20,900 bases of DNA. Source: a virus. Positions 7,447 to 7,841 of the stretch are shown one piece after another (position 1 is the first letter of the stretch; each line of letters opens with the position of its first letter). The notes beneath the pieces were generated by a model. It was not told where the DNA came from, searched no databases, and saw only the letters and a program-made list of their open reading frames with translations. Where the stretch lies: the IMG/VR virus record IMGVR_UViG_3300005510_000013, positions 1-20,900 of that record; one strand, given 5' to 3'. Position numbers and translations under genes: made by a program.

Positions 7447-7486
7447 TTGAAAGATTTTGAAAAATATTGAAAGATTTTGAAAAATA
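7447..7486. repeat. Perfect tandem 20-bp repeat (two copies)
   Basis: Two identical 20-bp units, each TTGAAAGATTTTGAA followed by AAATA, lie at 7447-7466 and 7467-7486. The second copy is also the outer end of the left arm of the 76-bp inverted repeat. They read as iterons. Confidence 0.9.
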
Positions 7487-7542
7487 GGAAATAAAAAATA
7501 CCGTAGTTACAGTCAAAATGTGCAATCTTTCAAATAATTCAA
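7467..7542. repeat. Left arm of 76-bp inverted repeat
   Basis: This arm aligns without gaps to the reverse complement of 7727-7802 at 61 of 76 positions by hand alignment. The outer 16 and inner 19 bases are identical, with AATCTTTCAAATAATTCAA at the inner end, and most differences fall in the middle. A shared TACCGTA core lies near the centre of both arms. Confidence 0.88.
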
Positions 7543-7602
7543 GAGAACAATAAAAATGAATTTTTTAAAAAATAACACTTTACAAACTTAATTTTTAGAC
7601 AT

Positions 7603-7635
7603 AAAATGGACTGCGTCCTACAGCGCATCCATTTT
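7603..7635. repeat. Hairpin near the centre of the dyad
   Basis: AAAATGGA (7603-7610) pairs with TCCATTTT (7628-7635), and after one bulged C, TGCG (7612-7615) pairs with CGCA (7624-7627), leaving an 8-nt loop. The stem is 12 bp. It is followed by AT-rich sequence but no clean T-run, so an origin hairpin or a weak bidirectional terminator are both possible. Confidence 0.6.
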
Positions 7636-7684
7636 ATTATATTTTTATATATCTTTTTATATTAAAGCGCGTACGTGCGAGGAC

Positions 7685-7717
7685 TTTTTTCTCTTTTTTT
7701 TATTTTTTATTTTTTTT
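7685..7717. other. T-tract of the candidate unwinding region
   Basis: Twenty-nine of 33 bases are T on the + strand; the exceptions are C at 7691 and 7693 and A at 7702 and 7709. It is flanked on the left by the only GC-rich spot of the spacer (GCGCGTACGTGCG, 7667-7679) and on the right by the right repeat arm. This is typical of easily melted or intrinsically stiff DNA. Confidence 0.5.
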
Positions 7718-7726
7718 AAGAAATCG

Positions 7727-7802
7727 TTGAATTATTTGAAAGATTAGTAATTTTTACCGTACTTACGGTAAAAAATAATTCCTATCTTTCAAAATCTTTC
7801 AA
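7727..7802. repeat. Right arm of 76-bp inverted repeat
   Basis: This is the inverted partner of 7467-7542. It carries an extra perfect hairpin (7751-7774) not conserved in the left arm. A further partial copy, TTCAAATAATTCAA (7809-7822), lies just outside it, mirroring the extra tandem unit outside the left arm. Confidence 0.88.
7751..7774. repeat. Perfect 10-bp hairpin in the right arm
   Basis: TTTTTACCGT (7751-7760) pairs with ACGGTAAAAA (7765-7774) around a 4-nt ACTT loop. The stem is mostly A-T, so it is more likely a protein-binding dyad or origin cruciform than a terminator. Confidence 0.65.
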
Positions 7803-7841
7803 GAAACTTCAAATAATTCAATAATTTTAATGAAAAATACT

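Follow-up and report, generated by a model that had tools for sequence, protein, structure and literature searches.

A mirrored iteron dyad beside a Prim-Pol replicase gene: a candidate replication origin in a tailed-phage contig

The divergent spacer of a virus contig of 20.9 kb (the whole stretch analysed, from here on called the window) is filled by a long imperfect inverted repeat, and judging from its sequence the zone 7441–7829 is very probably a phage replication origin of the iteron-dyad type, a reading to which we assign a probability of roughly 0.86. The iterons of the dyad are confined to it, its centre holds the stability minimum of the window, the replicase encoded next to it is predicted to end in a winged helix, and the plan recurs, with changing iterons, beside homologous replicases at other viral loci.

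Results

Structure of the dyad

The features of the spacer and of the two genes next to it are as follows (coordinates, strand where one applies, description).

4968–7211, minus: gene for the Prim-Pol/PriCT_2/DUF3987 replicase, 747 aa, presumed initiator
4977–5180, minus: replicase gene segment encoding residues 678–745, the predicted C-terminal winged helix and presumed iteron binder
7204–7377, minus: HTH (HTH_3) protein, 57 aa
7404–7432, minus: promoter-like GTGACA-17-TAATAT for HTH-primase, a consensus match only, adjoining the left array on its outside
7447–7486, minus: outer left iteron array with 10-bp period, ATCTTTCAA at 7447–7455 and 7467–7475
within 7447–7486, minus: degenerate TTGAAAAATA units between and after the ATCTTTCAA copies of this array
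7456–7542 (core 7467–7542): left arm, defined by symmetry
7499–7513: near-palindrome TACCGTAGTTACAGT of the left arm, possible HTH-protein site (inferred)
7525–7533, plus: inner left iteron ATCTTTCAA
7543–7726: dyad centre, 184 bp, 76% A+T, presumed melting element
7603–7638, plus: G+C-containing hairpin in the centre, downstream of the promoter-like 7579–7607
7727–7813 (core 7727–7802): right arm, defined by symmetry
7736–7744, minus: inner right iteron ATCTTTCAA
7755–7770: palindrome TACCGTACTTACGGTA of the right arm, possible HTH-protein site (likewise)
7784–7792 and 7794–7802, plus: outer right iteron pair ATCTTTCAA, step 10 bp
7842–7869, plus: promoter-like TTGAAA-16-TATTGT for the rightward genes, a consensus match only, adjoining the right array on its outside

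The cores of the two arms align without gaps over 76 bp and match at 61/76 positions, the identity being complete over the outer 16 and the inner 19 bases, in full agreement with the coordinates, length and identity given by an earlier sequence-only reading of this DNA. That reading had also placed further symmetry outside both arms, and the symmetry indeed reaches 7456–7542/7727–7813 with 68/87 positions matching, while BLAST pairs 7441–7542 with 7727–7829 at 77%, giving a symmetric zone of 7441–7829. When scored with +1 for a match and -2 for a mismatch the dyad reaches 31, compared to a mean of 11.4 and a maximum of 18 in 300 dinucleotide-preserving shuffles, and under +1/-1 scoring it reaches 49 against a shuffle maximum of 22. 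The dyad scan revealed no second strong separated dyad in the 20.9-kb window.

The iteron ATCTTTCAA is present in six copies in the whole window, every one inside the dyad. Exact copies of GAAAGATT are found at 7449, 7469 and 7738 on the plus strand and at 7524 and 7793 on the minus strand together with a further copy with one mismatch at 7783–7790, so that the six mirrored copies, one of them with a single mismatch, counted by the sequence-only reading were recovered. The outer parts of the dyad are 10-bp-phased arrays with TTGAAA at 7447, 7457, 7467 and 7477 and, on the opposite strand, at 7787 and 7797; the zone thus contains the near-identical short repeats at helical-turn spacing that are typical of an iteron-type origin, both as TTGAAA-type 10-bp steps and as the six ATCTTTCAA. 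In addition, a near-palindrome of the form TACCGTA-NN-TAC(G/A)GT is present once per arm. These TACCGTA palindromes in the middle of the arms (7499–7513 and 7755–7770) resemble the GGTAAC/TACCGTA-type iterons of the S. thermophilus phage SW30 (L189), a likeness that is possibly a coincidence or possibly marks a site for a second protein.

When analysing DNA stability, a check suggested along with the sequence-only reading, the least stable 30-mer of the window was found inside the dyad centre, starting at 7635, and the least stable 60-mer in the dyad ranks in the top 0.1% of the window. The centre also contains a promoter-like TTTACA-17-TAAAAT on the plus strand followed by the stable hairpin at 7603–7638 and then a pyrimidine-rich tract (7579–7700 in all), and the RNA fold of 7600–7700 gave a z of -4.75. 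A small RNA, perhaps acting as primer or activator, may be transcribed through the melting region. GC skew had been proposed as another check and does switch sign at the spacer, but since the gene direction changes at the very same spacer the skew is uninformative on the origin, and third-position skew calculated per gene was of no help in locating it.

Gene setting and the replicase

Leftward of the spacer are genes for the HTH protein, the Prim-Pol replicase, an AAA_24 ATPase, an SSB-like protein, a Cas4-domain exonuclease and a helicase, while the rightward genes encode small proteins followed by a terminase large subunit (identified through tblastn matches to annotated terminases), portal, prohead protease and major head protein. 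A 684-aa protein (15648–17702, plus strand) encoded between the capsid and the head-tail genes further downstream has two Laminin_G_3 (ConA-like lectin) stretches and is possibly a surface-binding decoration.

The structural model of the replicase has a mean pLDDT of 87 and ends in a helix-helix-helix-strand-strand arrangement, a winged helix, at residues 678–745. A presumed cognate initiator with a predicted DNA-binding domain is thus encoded close to the repeats, as for an iteron-type origin. Foldseek searches with the model placed MCM helicases at the top and also matched the primases of pRN1 and NrS-1; for the DUF3987 part the E-values against MCM helicases go down to 8e-7 with TM-scores of 0.25–0.27 of the query, low values that make the likeness one at the level of the domain only. 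It may nevertheless give DUF3987, an uncharacterised domain, a possible fold. A primase profile run against the sequences of solved structures gave no match. DUF3987 has been predicted to be a helicase and the C-terminal winged helices of such primases have been suggested to recognise origins (PMC5862659).

The plan across Prim-Pol loci

Searches with the spacer DNA against phage records gave no match, the exact 23-mer of the central hairpin was absent from viral contigs, genome contigs queried with the primase yielded no relative, Rfam returned nothing approaching gathering scores, and the near-identical relative L004 breaks off ahead of the spacer. The lack of any relative with a conserved spacer sequence counts against an origin. 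As these searches gave no record sharing the spacer, the plan was compared instead of the sequence, using primase relatives drawn from phage records and viral contigs. The dyad scan aligned the left side locally, with gaps allowed, to the reverse complement of the right, with arms at least 60 bp apart and shuffles of the same stretch as reference, and was applied to 89 Prim-Pol loci with room on the 3' side, a dyad of z≥6 being called strong.

This comparison revealed 41 strong dyads, of which 35 are centred on the 3' side of the Prim-Pol gene at a distance of 0–350 bp, in a zone making up 4.7% of the sequence (binomial p about 1e-40, relatedness ignored). Among these 35, 30 are non-redundant and differ in their repeat units while sharing a common plan. 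A dyad of z≥6 is present in the 3' zone of 33/87 Prim-Pol genes and in none of the 87 5' zones, and in the same loci equal-size zones next to other ORFs (150 aa or longer) contained one in 5/518 cases, two of the five being the divergent spacers of L022 and L039. Only about 40% of the Prim-Pol loci reach z≥6, which weighs against an origin. A further scan of newly fetched loci gave nine more 3' dyads, some of them near earlier ones, and six strong dyads elsewhere. Strong separated dyads not directly 3' of Prim-Pol were seen in L138 (6610), L148 (2910), L151 (6435), L186 (9210), L187 (7435) and L083 (6535); these are possibly relocated origins or cases of split primase genes.

The more distant primase phages (of Serratia, Klebsiella, Pseudomonas, Shewanella, Enterococcus and others) mostly showed no dyad at the gene, a further point against an origin, with weak positives in Escherichia phage Halfdan (score 14.0, z 4.7, 153 bp 3') and Sphingomonas phage Eidolon (score 14.0, z 5.8, on the 5' side). 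Scattered iterons, as in the Pseudoalteromonas phages and Vibrio H188, escape the dyad score, and the repeats there were judged only from repeat tables and by eye. No dyad of z≥6 was found in L015–L018, which have the packaging module in common with the window, or in L006–L012, which have the recombination module in common, both groups being without a close full-length homologue of the replicase (L007 and L011 have weak matches to its C-terminal half).

The dyads have a shared anatomy. The repeat units differ by locus (CCTGTCAA in L024, TACTGTC in L051, TGTAACT in L034, CGTCGAA in L027 and GTCCCTA in L108), their copies are spaced 8–12 bp or about 20 bp apart within each arm, mirrored, and the iterons of the compared loci are almost restricted to the dyad zone. 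A TGTCA core is recurrent (83 observed against 28 expected), and AATCTTTCAA of the window and AACCTGTCAA of L024 are alike at 8/10 positions, which is only suggestive of a meaningful relation. The centres range from 67 to 376 bp, so that the 184 bp of the window, called unusual by the sequence-only reading, are ordinary for the class. The least stable 60-mer of the locus lies no more than 150 bp from the dyad centre in 23/35 loci, and in 30/35 the dyad falls in the top 1% for instability; the centre of L024 consists of (AT)n and has a G+C content of 18%. The origin role proposed from the sequence is in this way supported by a mirrored-iteron plan beside a Prim-Pol replicase at no fewer than 30 non-redundant viral loci, with a melting minimum in most. 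The plan is also found in L034, whose helicase is VapE-like and not DUF3987. At 5667–5949 of this locus mirrored TGTAACT units are spaced 9 bp apart around a centre of 63% G+C, compared to 73% for the locus, and the plan therefore persists without a truly AT-rich core.

Position of the dyad relative to the gene

Relatives with 41–46% primase identity (L024, L051–L054 and L130–L133) have their recombination genes leftward and the primase rightward, in several cases with an HTH gene ahead of it, and any dyad found in them sits on the primase's 3' side. The window instead has its HTH-primase block running leftward along with the recombination genes and its dyad on the 5' side of the block, in the divergent spacer, a difference from the closest relatives that likewise weighs against an origin. 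A 5' dyad in a divergent spacer is also seen in Vibrio phages 1.030.O and 1.005.O, while the dyad of L024 is situated between co-directional genes, away from divergent promoters and the HTH gene. The dyad thus stays near the replicase gene, on either side of it, and independently of divergent promoters. The sequence-only reading had looked to close relatives for conserved arms; what is kept is the plan, while the arm sequence and even the gene side change.

Discussion

Alternative explanations

Two promoter-like sites lie in the spacer and regulation is therefore a possible additional or alternative role. If the zone were a symmetric control region and no origin, the arms would be twin operator or enhancer modules upstream of divergent promoters, and the 57-aa HTH protein, perhaps bound at the TACCGTA palindromes, would switch the replication and late operons together. 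The promoter-like site immediately downstream of each array, the adjoining HTH gene and the operator-sized near-palindrome in each arm are what such a region would be expected to have, but symmetric sites of this kind should remain with divergent promoters in relatives, and there the dyad is instead found 3' of the primase and, in L024, between co-directional genes. The 5' zones of the Prim-Pol genes, 0/87 with a dyad against 33 for the 3' zones, the lack of a dyad in divergent phages that have the same packaging module without such a replicase, and the melting minimum, which an operator has no need of, all argue in the same direction, and we consider this reading unlikely. Somewhat doubtful, but clearly less so, is a mixed site, compatible with an origin, where the replicase would also repress or activate its own promoter via the outer left iterons in the manner of iteron-plasmid initiators. 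About 15 bp separate the end of the left array from the -35-like hexamer of the primase promoter, and it is this closeness of the outer left repeats to the replicase promoter-like site that makes added autoregulation plausible; L024 also has an extra iteron CCTGTCAA near 3119, 379 bp upstream of the primase start and just before the HTH gene, but this is one extra copy in one relative and at most other loci the promoter region is free of iterons.

It is very improbable that the arms are terminal repeats of a mobile element or that the zone is a packaging (pac/cos) or partition site. Transposon ends typically have long inverted repeats and a gene in the position of a terminase small subunit starts about 750 bp rightward (8582), but none of the neighbours scanned belongs to a transposase family or is a partition gene, the arms are made up of short-repeat arrays continuing past both their ends, and the two arms match each other only, with no other copy in the record. 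The dyads of the relatives, moreover, follow the replicase gene, with a sequence that differs every time. Transposon ends, a packaging site and a partition site were all rejected.

Comparison with known systems

An origin with the same plan has been functionally tested in the phage-inducible chromosomal islands (PICI/SaPI), and mirrored repeats of this kind are reported to be peculiar to phage satellites (PMC6092414). When the same scan was run on the tested E. coli PICI region its regional best was 13 with a z of 3.9, at a point 189 bp past the 3' end of the primase gene where TGTCTACC repeats are mirrored and about 9 bp apart; the tested example is thus only moderately symmetric and the cut at z≥6 misses true origins. 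The window resembles the PICI in its mirrored ATCTTTCAA sets and in the 76% A+T centre with the least stable 30-mer inside, and in most relatives, such as L024, L051 and L053, the dyad is 3' of the initiator gene as in the PICI. The window differs in that its dyad is 5' of HTH-primase, in its far stronger symmetry with arms of 76–87 bp, in its Prim-Pol/DUF3987 initiator, which is not the PICI primase, and in being part not of a satellite but of a tailed phage that carries its own genes for portal, prohead protease and major head protein. As read from the sequences, the reported confinement of the plan to satellites is broken by the tailed-phage loci; the literature consulted comprised open papers, and others may already have described the plan in tailed phages.

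In the S. thermophilus phage group the noncoding Sfi21 element is reported to act as an origin, as mentioned in PMC6356513 with reference to Foley 1998. The related phages CHPC1148 and SW30 were found to have, in a noncoding stretch on the 3' side of their primase/helicase genes, short GGTAAC-type repeats that point both ways and surround the least stable DNA. This arrangement is like that of our loci, whereas in these two phages the symmetry is weaker, the repeat unrelated and the primase and helicase placed on separate genes.

The alpha protein of satellite P4 unites a primase, a helicase and a C-terminal winged helix, the last binding short iterons of either orientation. Its single-protein initiator is like the one presumed for the window, but P4 needs two regions, ori and crr, that are kilobases apart while the arms of the window are separated by only 184 bp. 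In iteron plasmid and lambda origins short repeats, spaced at one or two turns of the helix, make up a single array to one side of an AT-rich region that melts, and their binder recruits the host helicase, whereas in the window two mirrored arrays enclose the presumed melting region and the presumed binder would act as helicase and primase in its own right.

Proposed mechanism and implications

For the origin reading we propose that the C-terminal winged helix of the replicase would bind the ATCTTTCAA iterons in both mirrored arms, where one replicase ring would form on each arm with the two facing each other. The A+T-rich centre, least stable from 7635, would then melt, the MCM-like ATPase part would pass onto the strands and the Prim-Pol part would prime in both directions, giving bidirectional forks. 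Extending this, phages with a single-protein Prim-Pol/MCM-like/winged-helix replicase might constitute one large replicon class, with an origin in the form of a mirrored iteron dyad round a melting element where two rings load facing each other like the MCM double hexamer, and with iteron and winged helix co-evolving; we offer this tentatively, its chances being a little below even. If iteron and winged helix do co-evolve, the binding code would be readable from sequence pairs.

The rule of mirrored short repeats at the least stable DNA beside a Prim-Pol replicase gives candidate origins for dozens of uncultured phages, each matched with a presumed recognition domain. The presence of the plan outside satellites bears on the source of the satellites' replicon, and with a predicted MCM-like helicase and winged helix encoded next to a presumed two-sided origin, facing loading by one viral protein becomes testable.
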